Position numbers and translations under genes: made by a program. A DNA stretch of 51,321 nt from Ectothiorhodospiraceae bacterium (GTDB taxonomy: Bacteria; Pseudomonadota; Gammaproteobacteria; Nitrococcales; Aquisalimonadaceae): positions 1 to 51,321 of the forward strand of contig PXAT01000096.1 in the NCBI GenBank assembly GCA_003565775.1, read 5' to 3'. Of the stretch, positions 4,214 to 51,044 are shown piece after piece. Below the pieces are notes generated by a model, which saw nothing but the letters and a program-made list of their open reading frames with translations, searched no databases and was not told the DNA's origin. The first letter of the stretch is position 1. The number at the start of each line of letters is the position of its first letter.

Positions 4214-4254
4214 TCGCATTACGATCGCCGGCCTGGCCGTCTCCCGTTCCCCCG

Positions 4255-5115
4255 TCAGAGGGCATTCAGCGGAATCTTGAGATAACGCCGGCCATCCGGC
4301 TCCGCCGGCGGCATGCGACCGGCGCGGATATTCACCTGAATCGACGGCAGAATCAGCCGCGGCATTCCCAGAGTCGCGTCGCGGGCATCGCGCATCTGCA
4401 CGAAGTCCTCCTCGGTAACGCCACCCCCAACATGAATATTGTCTGCCCGCTGCGCCGCCACCGTGGTCTCGCAGGCATGGCCGCGGCTGTCACCCGGATA
4501 ATCGTGGCAGACGAACAGGCGCAGATCATCCGGCAGCGTCAGCAGCTTCTGGATCGAACGATACAGGGTCGCGGCGCTGCCCCCCGGGAAATCACAGCGC
4601 GCGGTCCCGACGTCGGGCATGAAAAGGGTGTCCCCGACGAACACGGCATCGCCGATGACATAGCTCAGATCGGCCGGAGTATGCCCGGGCGTATGCAGCA
4701 CCCGTCCCTCAAGGTCACCGATACGAAACGTCTCGCCATCCCGGAACAGATGATCGAAGTCGGCGCCGTCCGGCAGGAACTCCTTCTCCAGATTGAACAC
4801 CTTGCGGAAGATGTCCTGAACTTCGCGAATGTGCTCGCCGATGGCGATTCGCCCACCGAGCTGCTCGCGAATGAAGGGCGCGGCCGACAGATGGTCGGCA
4901 TGGGCATGGGTTTCCAGCACCCAGTCGACGGTCAGATCCAACTCGCGCACGAAGTCGACGATCGCCTCGGCACTGGCGGTCGATGTCCGCCCGGACGCCG
5001 GATCGTAATCCAGCACCGGATCGATCACCGCTGCGTGTCCGCCGGGGCGGTCATAAACCACATAGCTGAATGTTTCGGAATCCTGGTCCAGAAAGGCCTT
5101 GATTTGCGGCTGCAT
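4255..5115 (-). CDS. MBL-fold persulfide dioxygenase-like hydrolase
   Basis: This 286-aa metallo-beta-lactamase-fold enzyme has all the expected metal ligands: H70-A-H72-A-D74-H75, H141 in HTPGHT, D162 in GDTLF and H203 in CHDYP. It resembles the ETHE1/Blh group, which oxidises glutathione persulfide to sulfite using a mononuclear iron, and no fused rhodanese domain is present. It is divergent from a BigR-type repressor and the pmpAB transport genes, the same partners found in known bigR operons. The ATG at 5115 has a strong GGAGGT 5 nt upstream. MITE copy 2 begins only 2 bp beyond that ribosome-binding site, so the promoter must lie in or beyond the element. Assignment to persulfide is inferred from the context. 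Confidence 0.85.
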   Translation of the reverse strand: MQPQIKAFLDQDSETFSYVVYDRPGGHAAVIDPVLDYDPASGRTSTASAEAIVDFVRELDLTVDWVLETHAHADHLSAAPFIREQLGGRIAIGEHIREVQDIFRKVFNLEKEFLPDGADFDHLFRDGETFRIGDLEGRVLHTPGHTPADLSYVIGDAVFVGDTLFMPDVGTARCDFPGGSAATLYRSIQKLLTLPDDLRLFVCHDYPGDSRGHACETTVAAQRADNIHVGGGVTEEDFVQMRDARDATLGMPRLILPSIQVNIRAGRMPPAEPDGRRYLKIPLNAL

Positions 5116-32225: not shown

Positions 32226-32840
32226 GTGAAACCGGGCACCATGCAGACACGTTACCACCAGGCCCAATTTCTGATGAGCGCCGCCGAACTGGGCCAGTTG
32301 CCGCCGGATCAGGGCCGCGAAATCGCCTTCGCCGGACGCTCCAATGCCGGCAAGTCCAGCGCGCTGAATGTGCTGACCGGCCACAAGGGCCTGGCCCGGG
32401 TCAGCAAGACACCCGGGCGCACGCAATTGATCAACGTCTTTCCGTTATCCGACAACGAGGCCCTGATCGACCTGCCCGGCTATGGCTATGCCAAGGTGCC
32501 GGAGCGCGTGCGACGGCAATGGCAGGCGCTGCTGCCCAACTACCTGATGGAGCGGCAGGCACTGGTCGGTCTGATTCTGATCATGGACAGCCGCCACCCC
32601 TTGCGGGATTTCGATCAGCAGATGCTGGACTGGACCGGTGCTGCCGGCCTGCCTGTCCATATTCTCCTGAGCAAGGCGGACAAACTCAGCCGCGGTGCCG
32701 CCGGCAACACCCTGCAAGCGGTCCGCCGCGAACTGGAAACAAGGTCTCCACCGGTCAGTGTGCAACTGTTTTCGGCCCAGGATGGTCGCGGCACCGAGGA
32801 CGCCCACCGCGTCATGGACGCCTGGCTCGACCAGCCCTGA
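32226..32840 (+). CDS. engB: EngB/YihA ribosome-biogenesis GTPase
   Basis: This 204-aa TrmE-Era-type GTPase has P-loop GRSNAGKSS, switch region SKTPGRTQ, G3 DLPGYG and G4 SKADK. EngB acts late in 50S subunit assembly and is essential in many bacteria. The start may be GTG 32226 or ATG 32241 (199 aa); neither has a strong ribosome-binding site. It lies back to back with the c4 operon and converges on polA across a 618-bp gap, the arrangement found around spf in E. coli and ersA in Pseudomonas. Confidence 0.95.
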
Positions 32841-32858
32841 GGAAACGAAACACGGCCG

Positions 32859-32885
32859 GAACTTCATTGCGGTGCAACAGTCATA
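32859..32885 (+). promoter_or_regulatory. RpoE/AlgU-like promoter of the predicted sRNA
   Basis: GGAACTT (32858-32864) is a full match to the -35 of envelope-stress sigma factors (GAACTT). It is followed after 16 bp by TCATA (32881-32885), close to their -10 (TCtgA/TCaaA). It begins 18 bp after the engB stop. The predicted start is about 32891-32893. Confidence 0.6.
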
Positions 32886-32890
32886 ATGGA

Positions 32891-33016
32891 TGCGCCAGTG
32901 CCCGGCGCTGCCCGCTCCCTCCCCTTACGATCGAGCGGGCTTAAAGCGGCCTCTACCCCGGAGGTCGCGGATGTTGGCCCTGGTCTTTCCCCCGAAAGCC
33001 AGGGCCCTTTCTTTTC
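32891..33016 (+). ncRNA. Predicted sRNA in the engB-polA gap (Spot 42/ErsA position)
   Basis: About 125 nt with no coding potential folds by eye into three hairpins in a row. The first is GCCCGCT/AGCGGGC (32910-32916 with 32934-32940), with a 17-nt C-rich loop containing CCCTCCCC, complementary to Shine-Dalgarno sequences. The second is GCGGCCTC/GAGGTCGC (32946-32953 with 32961-32968) with loop TACCCCG. The third is a terminator stem GGCCCTGG/CCAGGGCC with inner CTTTC/GAAAG, followed by CTTTCTTTT. The gap between polA and engB holds spf (Spot 42) in enterics and the AlgU-dependent ErsA in Pseudomonas. Position, stress-type promoter, length and fold all fit an ErsA-like RNA. Homology by sequence was not tested. 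Confidence 0.68.
32976..33016 (+). terminator. Rho-independent terminator of the predicted sRNA
   Basis: The 8-bp stem GGCCCTGG (32976-32983) with CCAGGGCC (32999-33006) encloses a second perfect 5-bp stem, CTTTC (32985-32989) with GAAAG (32994-32998), and loop CCCC. It is followed by the pyrimidine run CTTTCTTTTCC. It would also stop read-through from engB. Confidence 0.8.
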
Positions 33017-33038
33017 CGCCCCGCATACCCCGATGATC

Positions 33039-33110
33039 AGGGAAACGTCGAGCTACTCGCACTCCCGTGTTGGAGTCCGCATTTTTCTCAAGACAAAGCG
33101 CGCTGCGCAA
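33039..33110. repeat. MITE end fragment, inverted, between sRNA and polA
   Basis: This 72-bp stretch matches the reverse complement of the right end of the 5129-5405 element. It starts AGGGAAACG, and the most conserved part is GTTGGAGTCCGCATTTT (33069-33085). Beyond 33110 the similarity ends. It is a decayed or partial copy. Together with the inverse-like end at 33432-33458 it may mark the limits of an older, diverged element of about 420 bp. Confidence 0.65.
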
Positions 33111-33431
33111 CGGTCGGGGTCATGCGGCTCAGCGGTTGGTTTCGATGCCGATCGGGCGGATGCCGGCTCCGGAACCGCCGTGAACCCATCCCTGGGGGCT
33201 TGACGATCGCGTCCCTGCGATCGACATTCCTCCGCCGACATCCGCCCGCCCGGCTTGATGCGGGTGGCTCCTGGGAGTGACGTGGCCTGGGCGGCGGCCC
33301 GAATCGGGCACTGCAGTTCTGGACGGGTTAACGGCGGTCCCGGAGAGGGAATGCCTGACCCCGGCTGGGCAACGCTCAGTGGGGTTGGCACTCGAACTGA
33401 AGCGCCCGACCGCTAGCGATGTCAGGCATAG

Positions 33432-33458
33432 GCGGGGGAATCGCTCAGTGTTTCCCTG
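33432..33458. repeat. Possible opposite terminal repeat next to the polA stop
   Basis: GAATCGCTCAGTGTTTCCCT (33438-33457) resembles the right end of the MITE (GAATACTTCAGCGTTTCCTT) and stands directly against the polA stop codon (33459-33461). With the fragment at 33039 it could bound a diverged relative of the element. The interval 33111-33431 holds a short hairpin, GATCGC-GTCCCT-GCGATC, and no convincing gene. Confidence 0.35.
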
Positions 33459-36164
33459 CTAGTGCGCCTCTTCCCAGTTGTCGCCGACACCCACGTCCAC
33501 CTCCAGCGGTACCGCCAGTTCCGCCGCCTCCGCCATGATCTCGGTGACCCGCGCCGCAACCGCAGCTGTATCGGCCGCCGGCACTTCGAACACCAGTTCG
33601 TCGTGGACCTGCATCACCAGCAGCACGTCCGGCTGCTCCTGTTCGAGCCAGGCGTGCACCCGGATCATGGCGCGCTTGATGATGTCGGCCGCGGTACCCT
33701 GCATCGGCGCGTTGATCGCGGTGCGCTCGGCATACTGCCGGCGCTGGGCGTTACGGGCATTGATCTCGGGCAGATGCAGGCGGCGGCCGAACACGGTCTC
33801 GACGTAGCCCTGCTCGCGGGCCTGGACGCGGGTCCGATCCATGTAGGCACGGACGCCCTCGAACCGCTCGAAATAGCGGTCAACATAATCCTGTGCCTGA
33901 CCGCGTTCCACCCCCAGCTGTTTCGCCAGGCCGAAGGCAGACATGCCGTAGATCAGGCCGAAATTGATCGCCTTGGCGGCACGGCGCTGCTCGTCCGTCA
34001 CCTGCTCCGGCGTGCTGCCGAACACCTCGCCGGCCGTGGTGCGGTGGATGTCCTGGCCCTCGGCAAACGCCCGGCGCAGGGTGTCGTCGCCGGACAGGTG
34101 CGCCATGATGCGCAGTTCCACCTGGGAGTAGTCCGCCGCCAGCAGCCGGTAGCCTGATTCGGCGATGAAGGCCTTGCGGATGCGCCGACCCTCCTGCGTG
34201 CGCACCGGAATGTTCTGCAGATTCGGATCGGAGGAGGACAGTCGTCCGGTGGCCGTCACCGCCTGATGATACGAGGTGTGCACCCGACCGGTATCCGGGT
34301 CGATCATGCGCGGCAGCTTGTCGGTATAGGTGGAACGCAGCTTGGACAGGCCGCGGTGTTCGAGAATCAGATGCGGCAGATCGTAGTCGTGGGCCAGCTC
34401 CTGCAGCACCGACTCGGCCGTGGACGGCTGTCCTTTGGGCGTCTTCTGCAGTACCGGTAGCCCCTGACGTTCGTACAGGATCTCCTGGATCTGCTTCGGC
34501 GAGCCCAGGTTGAACGGTCCGCCGGCGGCCTCGAAAGCAGCCTGTTCGACCCGCTGCATGCTCTCGGCCAGTTCCCGGCTCTGCTCGGCGAGACGCTTGC
34601 GATCCACCAGCACACCATGTCGCTCCATGCGCGACAGTACCGGCACCAGCGGCACCTCCAGATCGCGATAGACGGCTGCCAGCGAGGGCACCGCTTCCAG
34701 TCTCGGCCACAGCGTCTGATGCAGTTGCAGCGTGACGTCCGCGTCTTCAGCGGCGTAACCGGTGGCCGTATCGACGTCCACCTGATTGAAGCTCAGCTGC
34801 TTTGCCCCCTTGCCGGCCACGTCCTCGTACTTGATCGTGCCGCGTCCCAGGTATTTGAGGGCCAGCGAGTCCATGTCATGCCGGGTCGCCGTGGAATCCA
34901 GCACGTAGGATTGCAGCATGGTGTCGTGCGCCACCCCGCGCAGCGTGATCCCGGCCCGCGCCAGGACACTCATGTCGTATTTCAGGTTCTGCCCGACCTT
35001 GGCCCGCTCCGGATCCTCCAGCAGCGGCCGCAATCGCTCGAGCACCCTGTCACGATCCAGCTGATCCGGCGCACCGGGATAGTCGTGCGCCAGCGGAATG
35101 TAGGCCGCCCGGCCGGGCTCCACGGCCAGACAGACGCCGACGATATCCGCCTGCATGTAGGCCAGACTGGTGGTTTCCAGATCCACCGCGAACAGTTCGG
35201 CCTGAGCGATACGCTGCAGCCAGTCCTCCAGCAATCCCTCGCTGTTGACCTGCACGTACTCCGTGTCGGGCGCTGCGGCGACGGGTTCGGGCTGCGCCGC
35301 CCCGTCATCCTCGTCCAGCTGCGCCAGCCAGCTCCCGAATTCGAAGCGCCTATAGAGGCGCCGCAGGGTCTCGGTGTCGGGTTCGCCGCGCGCCAGGCTG
35401 CCCAAGTCCCGACCCAGTTCCACGTCGCAGCGGATGGTGGCCAGTTCGCGGCCCATCGGCAGCACTTCGAGATGCTCGCGCAGGCGCTCGCCGACCTTGC
35501 CCTTGACCTCATCGGCCCGGGCCATGACGCCGTCCAGATCTTCGAACTGCTGCAGCCACTTCGCTGCGGTCTTGGGACCGGCGCCGGGAATGCCGGGAAT
35601 GTTGTCGGAGGTATCTCCGACCAGGGCCAGATAATCGATGATCCGCTCCGGCGGTACGCCGAATTTTTCCCGCACACCATCGATATCCATGGACTTGCCG
35701 CTCATGGTGTTGAGCAGGGTGATCCGCGGCGACACCAGCTGCGCCATGTCCTTGTCGCCGGTGGAGATCACCACATCCTGACCGGCCGCCTCGGCCTGGC
35801 GTGCCAGCGTGCCGATGACGTCATCCGCCTCCACGCCATCGATTTCGAGCAACGGCAGCCCCATCGCCTCGACGATCTCCTTCAGCGGCTTGATCTGCGG
35901 CCGCAGATCGTCCGGCATCGAAGGCCGATTGGCCTTGTACTGATCGTAGAGATCGTCGCGGAAGGTGCGCCCCGGGGCATCGAACACCACCGCCATCGGA
36001 CCATCGGGATATTCCGCCAGCAGCTTGCGCAGCATGTTGACCACGCCGTAGATCGCACCGGTGGGCTCGCCGTCGGCATTGGTCAGCGGCGGCAGGGCAT
36101 GAAAGGCGCGGTACAGGTAGGACGAGCCGTCTACCAGAACCAGAGGCGCGGATTGATCCGCCAT
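33459..36164 (-). CDS. polA: DNA polymerase I
   Basis: This protein of about 901 aa has the full three-domain layout. An N-terminal 5'-3' exonuclease (VLVDGSSYLYRAFHALPPL, ISTGDKDMAQLV) comes first. A 3'-5' exonuclease follows, with FAVDLETTSL carrying the catalytic Asp-Glu pair. Last is the polymerase domain with DYSQVELR, the O helix RRAAKAINFGLIYG and the C motif VHDEL. It fills gaps left by Okazaki primer removal and repair. ATG 36164 is preferred over GTG 36170, which is too close to the AAGGA ribosome-binding site. It is divergent from the LOG gene. Confidence 0.97.
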   Translation of the reverse strand: MADQSAPLVLVDGSSYLYRAFHALPPLTNADGEPTGAIYGVVNMLRKLLAEYPDGPMAVVFDAPGRTFRDDLYDQYKANRPSMPDDLRPQIKPLKEIVEAMGLPLLEIDGVEADDVIGTLARQAEAAGQDVVISTGDKDMAQLVSPRITLLNTMSGKSMDIDGVREKFGVPPERIIDYLALVGDTSDNIPGIPGAGPKTAAKWLQQFEDLDGVMARADEVKGKVGERLREHLEVLPMGRELATIRCDVELGRDLGSLARGEPDTETLRRLYRRFEFGSWLAQLDEDDGAAQPEPVAAAPDTEYVQVNSEGLLEDWLQRIAQAELFAVDLETTSLAYMQADIVGVCLAVEPGRAAYIPLAHDYPGAPDQLDRDRVLERLRPLLEDPERAKVGQNLKYDMSVLARAGITLRGVAHDTMLQSYVLDSTATRHDMDSLALKYLGRGTIKYEDVAGKGAKQLSFNQVDVDTATGYAAEDADVTLQLHQTLWPRLEAVPSLAAVYRDLEVPLVPVLSRMERHGVLVDRKRLAEQSRELAESMQRVEQAAFEAAGGPFNLGSPKQIQEILYERQGLPVLQKTPKGQPSTAESVLQELAHDYDLPHLILEHRGLSKLRSTYTDKLPRMIDPDTGRVHTSYHQAVTATGRLSSSDPNLQNIPVRTQEGRRIRKAFIAESGYRLLAADYSQVELRIMAHLSGDDTLRRAFAEGQDIHRTTAGEVFGSTPEQVTDEQRRAAKAINFGLIYGMSAFGLAKQLGVERGQAQDYVDRYFERFEGVRAYMDRTRVQAREQGYVETVFGRRLHLPEINARNAQRRQYAERTAINAPMQGTAADIIKRAMIRVHAWLEQEQPDVLLVMQVHDELVFEVPAADTAAVAARVTEIMAEAAELAVPLEVDVGVGDNWEEAH

Positions 36165-36290
36165 GGGCACGAGATCCTTGCAAGTCGGTGAAACGGGACG
36201 CCTGGGCCGGGCATTACGGCCTGACCCGGCGCGGCGTTGTGCCGTAGGATACCTGCACCATTACTCAAGGACACACGGAGCCGTCGCTGC

Positions 36291-49337: not shown

Positions 49338-51044
49338 TCAGAACAGGAAATAGCGCTGCGCCATGGGCAGGCTGTCCACGGGCTCGCAGTGCAACAATTC
49401 GCCATCGGCCCGGACCTCGTAGGTCTCCGCGTCCACCTCCATGGTTGGCAGCCAGTCGTTCAACACCATGGAGCGCTTGTTCACCGTGCGGCAGCCTCGC
49501 ACGGCGAGCAGCGGTCGCTGCAGATTCAGCGTGTCCGCCAGCCCCGACTGCACGGCTGCCGCCGAGGCAAACGTCACCGAGGTGGCATGACGGGCACCGC
49601 CATAACTGCCGAACATCGGGCGGTAGTGCACCGGCTGCGGCGTGGGAATCGAGGCGTTCGGGTCGCCCATCGGGGCATAGGCGATAAAGCCACCCTTGAT
49701 GATCAGGGCCGGTTTGACGCCGAAGAAGGCCGGATCCCAGAGCACCAGATCGGCCAGCTTGCCCGGTTCCACCGAGCCGACTTCGTGCGCGATGCCGTGG
49801 GCCAGTGCCGGATTGATCGTGGTCTTCGCGATGTAGCGGCGGGCGCGGAAATTGTCGTTGCCCACCGAGTCCTGGGCCAGCGGACCCCGTTGCACCTTCA
49901 TCTTGTGCGCGGTCTGCCAGGTACGAATCAGGTTCTCGCCGACCCGCCCCATGGCCTGGGAGTCGGAGGAAATGATCGAAAACGCACCGAGGTCGTGCAG
50001 GATGTCTTCGGCGGCGATGGTTTCCCGCCGGATCCGCGATTCGGCAAAGGCCACATCTTCGGCGATGCGGGGATCCAGGTGATGACACACCATCAGCATG
50101 TCGAGATGCTCGTCGATGGTGTTGACGGTAAAGGGCCGGGTCGGATTGGTGCTGGATGGCAGCACGTTCACCTGGCCGCAGGCCTTGATGATATCCGGCG
50201 CGTGCCCGCCGCCCGCGCCCTCGGTGTGGTAGGTATGAATGGTGCGGCCCTTGAATGCCGCGAACGTGTCCTCGACGAAGCCGGACTCGTTCAGGGTGTC
50301 GGTATGAATCGCCACCTGCACGTCGTATTCCTCGGCCACGCCCAGGGCACAGTCAATGGCGGCCGGCGTCGTGCCCCAGTCCTCGTGCAACTTGAGCCCG
50401 AGTGCCCCGGCTTCCACCTGCTCCCGCAACGCCTCCGGGCGACTGGCGTTACCCTTGCCGAGAAACCCGAGATTCATCGGGAAGGCATCCGCTGCCTGCA
50501 ACATCCGATGAATATTCCACGGCCCCGGGGTACAGGTGGTGGCATTGGTGCCGGTGGCCGGACCGGTGCCACCGCCGATCATCGTGGTGACACCGGAAGC
50601 GAGCGCTTCCTCGATCTGCTGCGGACAAACGAAATGGATGTGCGCGTCGATGGATCCGGCGGTCAGGATCTTGCCCTCACCGGCAATCACTTCGGTCCCC
50701 GGCCCCAGGGCAATCCCGACACCCTCCTGGGTGTCAGGATTGCCGGCCTTGCCGATCGCGACAATACGCCCCTGCCGGATACCAACGTCCGCCTTGACCA
50801 CACCCCAGTGATCCAGGATCAGGGCATTGGTGATCACCAGGTCGACCACGTCCGCCGACACGCGCTGGCTCTGGCCCATGCCGTCGCGAATCACCTTGCC
50901 GCCGCCGAACTTCACCTCGTCACCGTAGACGGTGTAATCGCGCTCCACCTCGATCACGAGTTCGGTATCGGCCAGCCGCACCCGATCGCCAACCGTGGGG
51001 CCGTACATCTCGGCGTAGCCTCGGCGTGAAATGCGGCAGCTCAT
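49338..51044 (-). CDS. ureC: Urease alpha subunit UreC
   Basis: This full-length 568-aa catalytic subunit hydrolyses urea to ammonia and carbamate at a di-nickel site. All ligands are present, each one residue later than in Klebsiella: H135 and H137, carbamylated K218, H220, H247, H273 and D361. The flap pair C320-H321 is also kept. Its ATG overlaps the ureB stop by 4 bp, and ureE follows. Confidence 0.98.

Follow-up and report, generated by a model that had tools for sequence, protein, structure and literature searches.

The window, a 51,321-nt stretch of DNA from an Ectothiorhodospiraceae bacterium (contig PXAT01000096.1), contains an unannotated small RNA (sRNA) gene with a sigmaE-type promoter, located between the genes engB and polA. 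The sRNA belongs to a family that extends through the class Gammaproteobacteria, a distribution wider than could be seen in an earlier note that had been made from the sequence alone. The locus comprises the following features:

32241-32840, plus strand: engB (yihA), the co-directional upstream neighbour, with 51.5% identity to E. coli YihA
32858-32886, plus strand: sigmaE/AlgU-type promoter recognised in the sequence, with GGAACTT (32858-32864), 16 nt and TCATAA (32881-32886)
32890-33016, plus strand: sRNA gene of about 125 nt, with the start predicted at 32890-32892 and the end at about 33015 by the matches of models R1 and R2 (see below) and by the fold
32892-32908, plus strand: hairpin 1, GCGCC-AGUGCCC-GGCGC, almost invariant in alignments from the order of the window
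32910-32940, plus strand: hairpin 2 of the fold, with the loop CCUCCCCUUACGAUC, the C-rich loop of the earlier note, which contains CCTCCCC
32946-32968, plus strand: hairpin 3 of the fold, with the loop ACCCC
32976-33016, plus strand: intrinsic terminator according to fold and alignments, formed by hairpin 4 (32976-33006, with the C-rich tip CCCC) and a U-rich tail
33459-36170, minus strand: polA, the convergent neighbour, with 58.2% identity to E. coli PolA

The promoter follows the stop codon of engB at a distance of 17 nt, and a simple scan of the region 32500-33300 yielded no sigma70 promoter. Folding of the segment 32890-33016 resulted in a free energy of -65.9 kcal/mol, compared with -45.5 +/- 3.5 kcal/mol for 200 dinucleotide shuffles (z -5.85), and none of the 200 shuffled sequences was as stable. 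The promoter GAACTT-N16-TCATA and the intrinsic terminator that the earlier note had described are thus both present. Its three hairpins exist as well, but the actual number is four, as the 5' hairpin had been overlooked, and the hairpin that was called the first, with the C-rich loop, is the second in order. Two sites were reported by an automatic terminator scan with 0.5 expected, namely 32963-32979 and 33061-33076, and the hairpin 32976-33006 was not among them. A protein starting at the ATG at position 32886 was set aside as an explanation, given length differences of single bases among the copies in the alignment.

Between the sRNA and polA, the window contains about 440 nt (33017-33458) more than a locus of the same genus (L002). 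This additional segment includes a 28-nt inverted repeat (33147-33174 and 33227-33254, 79%); at 33294-33313, 20 nt match the start of the sRNA in inverted orientation (75%). The inverted repeat of the 5' hairpin hinted at a decayed second copy between 33017 and polA, and this candidate was rejected with model scores of at most 4.7 bits. Elsewhere in the window, the Rfam family 5_ureB_sRNA gave a match at 50606-50891 on the plus strand (93.4 bits), antisense to a long urease-subunit-like open reading frame (49338-51044, minus strand); it probably reflects conserved coding sequence and not a true antisense RNA.

By DNA similarity, the stretch was found in 30 of 59 genomes, the own genome included, and 29 of these 30 loci hold engB and/or polA, the remaining one (L029) holding neither. 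Two covariance models extended the search: R1 was built from 28 sequences belonging exclusively to the order of the window, and R2 from 61 sequences that include sX13 and anti-hemB loci and no recognised ErsA. In the window, R1 matched 32889-33014 with 102.5 bits, and the single R2 match (90.9 bits) is located at the sRNA gene. R2 detected the sRNA in 37 of the 40 genomes of the order, in 32 of the 33 high-quality ones and in all 16 genera, while R1 found it in 124 of the 370 genomes searched in the class Gammaproteobacteria, representing 103 of 273 genera. The class set used below consists of 96 loci with 114 copies and represents the stronger matches, R1 matches weaker than about 2e-6 being mostly left out; two loci originated from DNA similarity, 29 from the R1 class search, 60 from additional fetches and five from the R2 search of the phylum and the search with the ErsA model. 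Genes engB and/or polA were present at 84 of the 96 loci (both at 49, engB only at 22, polA only at 13 and neither at 12).

Among the genomes compared, the nearest named one by EngB identity is that of Methylonatrum kenyense (85.6%). A pattern scan of named genomes for the 5' hairpin with two C4 runs downstream yielded 28 stretches, 21 of which carry a strong R2 match (22 places, at least 79.8 bits), one a weak match (19.9 bits) and six none. The stretches with strong matches are of the Ectothiorhodospiraceae type, deriving from Aquisalimonas, Nitrococcus, Spiribacter, Arhodomonas, Methylonatrum, Alkalilimnicola and metagenome-assembled genomes, one of the latter being labelled only Gammaproteobacteria. 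In one genome of the same genus (G002) the sRNA was not found; the EngB matches in this genome are weak and GTPase-like (25-33% identity), so that the engB-polA locus is probably absent from the assembly.

At the level of the phylum, R2 matched 59 of 299 genomes, and 28 of the 59 genomes matched at E <=0.01 belong to other classes, which exceeds the expectation from a bound of 0.01 per genome. Neither engB nor polA was present at the nine loci of other classes that were fetched. The best match outside the class, at 1501-1632 on the minus strand of locus L072 (47.1 bits, E 4.2e-7), has C-rich loops; its surroundings contain neither engB nor polA, and Rfam identifies no family at the site of the match. 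Additionally, R2 gave weak second matches elsewhere in several genomes of the order of the window. In view of this excess of off-locus matches, weak scores (E of about 1e-4 to 1e-2) cannot be relied on by themselves and need the support of locus and promoter.

The comparison of the loci also bears on a simpler explanation, according to which the element acts only in cis, as a terminator or 3'-UTR structure insulating the convergent genes engB and polA. This would agree with its position between convergent genes and, in the window, with its co-directional arrangement so closely behind engB. Across the class, however, the RNA runs in the direction of polA and against engB in 58 of the 61 copies for which both genes were found, and 16 of 28 classified loci have the RNA in the direction of polA. 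In the family of the window it runs in the direction of engB at all 12 loci at which engB was found, and at a thirteenth (L008) it opposes polA. This reversal relative to most of the class indicates that in that lineage the sRNA gene, together with its promoter and terminator, underwent inversion or re-insertion, which speaks against an element that is no more than a 3'-UTR or terminator. Moreover, an insulating element would require neither a conserved promoter of its own nor a conserved 5' hairpin and C-rich loops, which are superfluous for termination, and the sRNA also occurs in tandem, with up to four copies in a row. We therefore regard a purely cis-acting element as very improbable and treat the locus as a separate sRNA gene. 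The loci L090 (1088-1842) and L163 (1757-2692) each harbour four tandem copies, which are sibling sRNAs, and a strict sigmaE-type motif precedes three of the four copies in either locus. In Alkalilimnicola ehrlichii (L214), copies at 1803-1919 and 4249-4367 are separated by 2.4 kb, one adjoining the 3' end of polA and the other lying about 2.5 kb beyond it.

The structure of the sRNA is under selection. In alignment A3 (61 copies), 94.4% of the cells pair and 28 of the 29 pairs show changes on both sides with pairing kept, as the earlier note had suggested looking for in alignments of relatives; the covariation score is 0.605, compared with 0.173 for shuffled alignments and at most 0.116 with slid partners. 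Alignment A4, comprising 81 further copies, gave very similar values (0.610 versus 0.180 shuffled and at most 0.122 with slid partners). Since A3 and A4 were each fitted to the model, they lean towards the structure; a plain MAFFT alignment of 28 members of the order shows two-sided changes in 14 of 23 predicted pairs. Across the class, all five pairs of hairpin 1 display two-sided changes. The stems vary while the loops of hairpins 2 to 4 remain C-rich, their content being 48-60% for C and 6-13% for G; hairpin 1 has a less C-rich loop (27-37% C). The motif CCUCC, which is identical to the anti-Shine-Dalgarno core of 16S rRNA, occurs in 94 of 142 hairpin-2 loops of the family, and CCCC is found in the loops of hairpin 3 (124 of 142) and of the terminator (107 of 142).

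The promoter is conserved as well. The motif GAACT-N16-18-TCNNA is located close upstream of 62 of the 114 copies, compared with a mean of 0.2 in letter shuffles, and a looser pattern precedes 74 copies, compared with 2.7 in shuffles; the 52 copies lacking the strict motif include near variants as well as clear absences. These data substantiate the envelope-stress-type promoter of the earlier note. Stems and promoter are both conserved in close relatives, and along with the stability of the fold this conservation bears out the proposed sRNA gene in the engB-polA gap. Within the own genome (3.2 Mb), the pattern GGAACTT-N15-17-TCNNA occurs at two places, one of them the sRNA promoter, and a control with the reversed pattern occurs at six. 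The own genome encodes RpoE (317.7 bits, cut-off 236), and in all 13 family genomes that yielded RpoE a loose pattern detected GAACT-N17-TCTA upstream of rpoE, with the form and spacing of the sRNA promoter. By eye, rpoE in the own genome (L111, 2473-5826) is followed by open reading frames resembling rseA, rseC, a DegP/MucD protease and lepA, and no rseB-like reading frame of at least 120 amino acids was seen between them. Taken together, the conserved motif and its likeness to the rpoE promoter argue strongly that the sRNA is under sigmaE control. For the related ncS04 (anti-hemB) in B. cenocepacia, a table of PMC5688073 lists no significant change under seven conditions, including osmotic stress and low pH, so that induction by stress may not be general.

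With respect to named RNAs, no Rfam family was assigned to the window RNA at the Rfam cut-offs. The matches below the cut-offs were led by 6C (22.2 bits) and included sX13 (20.5 bits, E 0.17 for 801 bases, cut-off 50), alphar7 (17.9 bits, E 0.4, cut-off 60) and ErsA (13.7 bits, E 7.6, cut-off 50), the latter three being RNAs of the polA neighbourhood. Up to E 10, the window gave no match to anti-hemB (RF02837, cut-off 49.5 bits) or to Spot 42. The Rfam models of ErsA and Spot 42, with which the earlier note had proposed to check its reading, thus left the RNA unrecognised. The own models were more informative. R1, although confined to the order, recovered sX13 (L052, L061) and anti-hemB (L039, L040, L048, L051) with E 1.7e-13 to 1.9e-10 per genome, and R2 recovered four ErsA loci with 32-37 bits (E 8e-5 to 6e-4 per genome), each situated between engB and polA and scoring 127-135 bits with the Rfam model of ErsA; another ErsA locus (L089) reached 26 bits with R2. 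Conversely, the Rfam model of ErsA gave 12 matches below its cut-off in 140 genomes, nine overlapping R1 matches, two (L091, L094) lying in the engB-polA gap, where R2 gave 28 and 33 bits, and the twelfth in genome G103. Since R2 contains no recognised ErsA and nevertheless recovers ErsA loci, the models support a detectable relationship between the window RNA and ErsA. Rfam recognises the RNA in 11 of the 94 class loci that were scanned, and 83 are without an Rfam family.

The RNA closest in architecture is sX13 (RF02232) of Xanthomonadaceae, which is 115 nt long, adjoins the 3' end of polA as does the window RNA and likewise has, in its Rfam consensus, a small 5' hairpin and three stem-loops with C-rich tips. 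It differs in running in the direction of polA (L052), whereas the window RNA opposes it, and in the GAACC of its promoters at five loci, compared with GAACTT in the window. ErsA (Pseudomon-1, RF01719) of Pseudomonas shares the engB-polA gap, the sigmaE/AlgU-type promoter motif and the C-rich loops of hairpin 3 and terminator, and differs in hairpin 2, which has diverged to a U-rich stretch. The RNA anti-hemB (Burkholderia RNA 7, ncS04, RF02837), named as antisense to hemB, is located beside engB and has four hairpins; polA was found at three of four class loci and at none of six loci of a second set. The loose promoter pattern precedes all five sX13 loci (with GAACC), four of six anti-hemB loci and all five ErsA loci. 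Both sX13 and ncS04 have been seen experimentally as transcripts, as stated in PMC3771888 and PMC5688073, respectively. From these features we read the window RNA as apparently wired like ErsA and built like sX13. The ErsA-like RNA of the earlier note is supported with regard to gap and promoter type and by the recovery of ErsA with R2; in architecture, sX13 is the closest.

Two further RNAs were considered and set aside. Spot 42 (spf) of enterobacteria occupies the corresponding gap between polA and yihA, but R2 on spf gave a non-significant 10.7 bits (E 0.19), which leaves a kinship unsupported. The RNA alphar7 (RF02342) of Alphaproteobacteria adjoins polA, has hairpins with C-rich tips and scores 21-31 bits with R2 at six of six loci, but at all six it is situated beside the N-terminal (5') end of polA, whereas the window RNA lies at the 3' end; on account of this position and the weak scores it was rejected as an orthologue and left out of the family.

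The shared locus, the promoter type and the model matches support a single ancestral polA-engB sRNA. In the full form of this reading, one sRNA was present in or before the gamma/beta-proteobacterial ancestor and was kept in the polA-engB gap under sigmaE, ErsA, sX13 and anti-hemB descend from it, and its C-rich loops silence mRNAs with G-tracts, hfq being an old target. We give this reading about even chances, the weak off-locus matches and the unresponsive ncS04 lowering its probability. A separate origin of sX13, anti-hemB, ErsA and the window RNA, with convergence on C-rich loops and a strong terminator, appears unlikely to us. C-rich-loop RNAs do recur in unrelated bacteria, as is illustrated by the leading position of 6C among the sub-threshold matches; alphar7 obtains its R2 scores at the other end of polA, off-locus weak matches exist, and the Rfam models of sX13 and ErsA give the window only low scores. 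Convergence would nevertheless have to account for whole-length R1 matches to sX13 and anti-hemB at the E-values given above, for a shared locus, hairpin order and promoter type, and for the many unclassified intermediates. PMC3771888 describes sX13 as exclusive to Xanthomonadaceae, and a literature search, in which most subscription papers were outside reach, found no paper that names both ErsA and sX13 and no title uniting these RNAs.

The features of the locus suggest how the sRNA may act. Envelope stress would release RpoE (sigmaE), which would transcribe the sRNA from GGAACTT-N16-TCATAA, and synthesis would end at its own terminator. The structured RNA would then present three C-rich single-stranded loops (CCUCCCCUU, ACCCC and CCCC) that may base-pair with G-tracts (AAGGGG, for example) located within ribosome-binding sites or next to them and thereby repress translation, as sX13 does; the conserved 5' hairpin probably serves in protection of the 5' end or in protein binding. 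That the gene specifies a free-standing, trans-acting sRNA of about 125 nt which depends on sigmaE and acts through C-rich loops is, in our judgement, quite probable; transcription, sigmaE control, pairing, repression and the target hfq are the parts that we infer. According to PMC3771888, sX13 recognises G-rich motifs close to start codons by pairing through its C-rich loops, without a need for Hfq; it represses hfq via a G4 motif 9-12 nt downstream of the ATG, and its level is higher at high salt and at 37 C.

Judged from its translation start, hfq is the best candidate target of the window RNA and a likely conserved one, by which the stress response would be tied to Hfq levels. The own genome encodes Hfq, and two stretches of its hfq gene are complementary to the loop sequence CCCCUU, namely CAAGGGG at the ribosome-binding site and, at codons 3-4, AAGGGG. 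The motif RAGGGG is present at the ribosome-binding site of hfq in 14 of 14 family genomes (L031, L220-L232), which are close relatives, and the G4 tract at codons 3-4, partly fixed by the protein, in five of the 14. Among 55 other gene starts, a crudely called background, RAGGGG occurs in two and G4 in five.

The presence of Hfq and the U-rich tail after the terminator would also suit an Hfq-dependent sRNA of the ErsA type, driven by sigmaE and pairing with the aid of Hfq partly outside the loops. ErsA itself, which is recovered by R2, is driven by sigma22 and depends on Hfq for several targets (PMC8575079). The predicted fold, however, leaves no extended unpaired region comparable to the unstructured domain II of ErsA, and C-rich loops on stable stems are the architecture of sX13, described as Hfq-independent in PMC3771888. 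We accordingly rate Hfq-dependent pairing as a rather doubtful alternative to the preferred pairing through the C-rich loops.

The sRNA family seems to link three regulatory RNAs that have so far been filed as unrelated. If the kinship is true, the results on ErsA (biofilm, porin and anaerobic growth), on sX13 (virulence and hfq) and on ncS04/anti-hemB concern one regulator, the name anti-hemB is probably misleading, and sigmaE control would be predicted for many genera in which Rfam shows nothing. Provided that the RNAs indeed descend from a single ancestor, the family would represent an ancient non-coding branch of the envelope-stress response governed by sigmaE.
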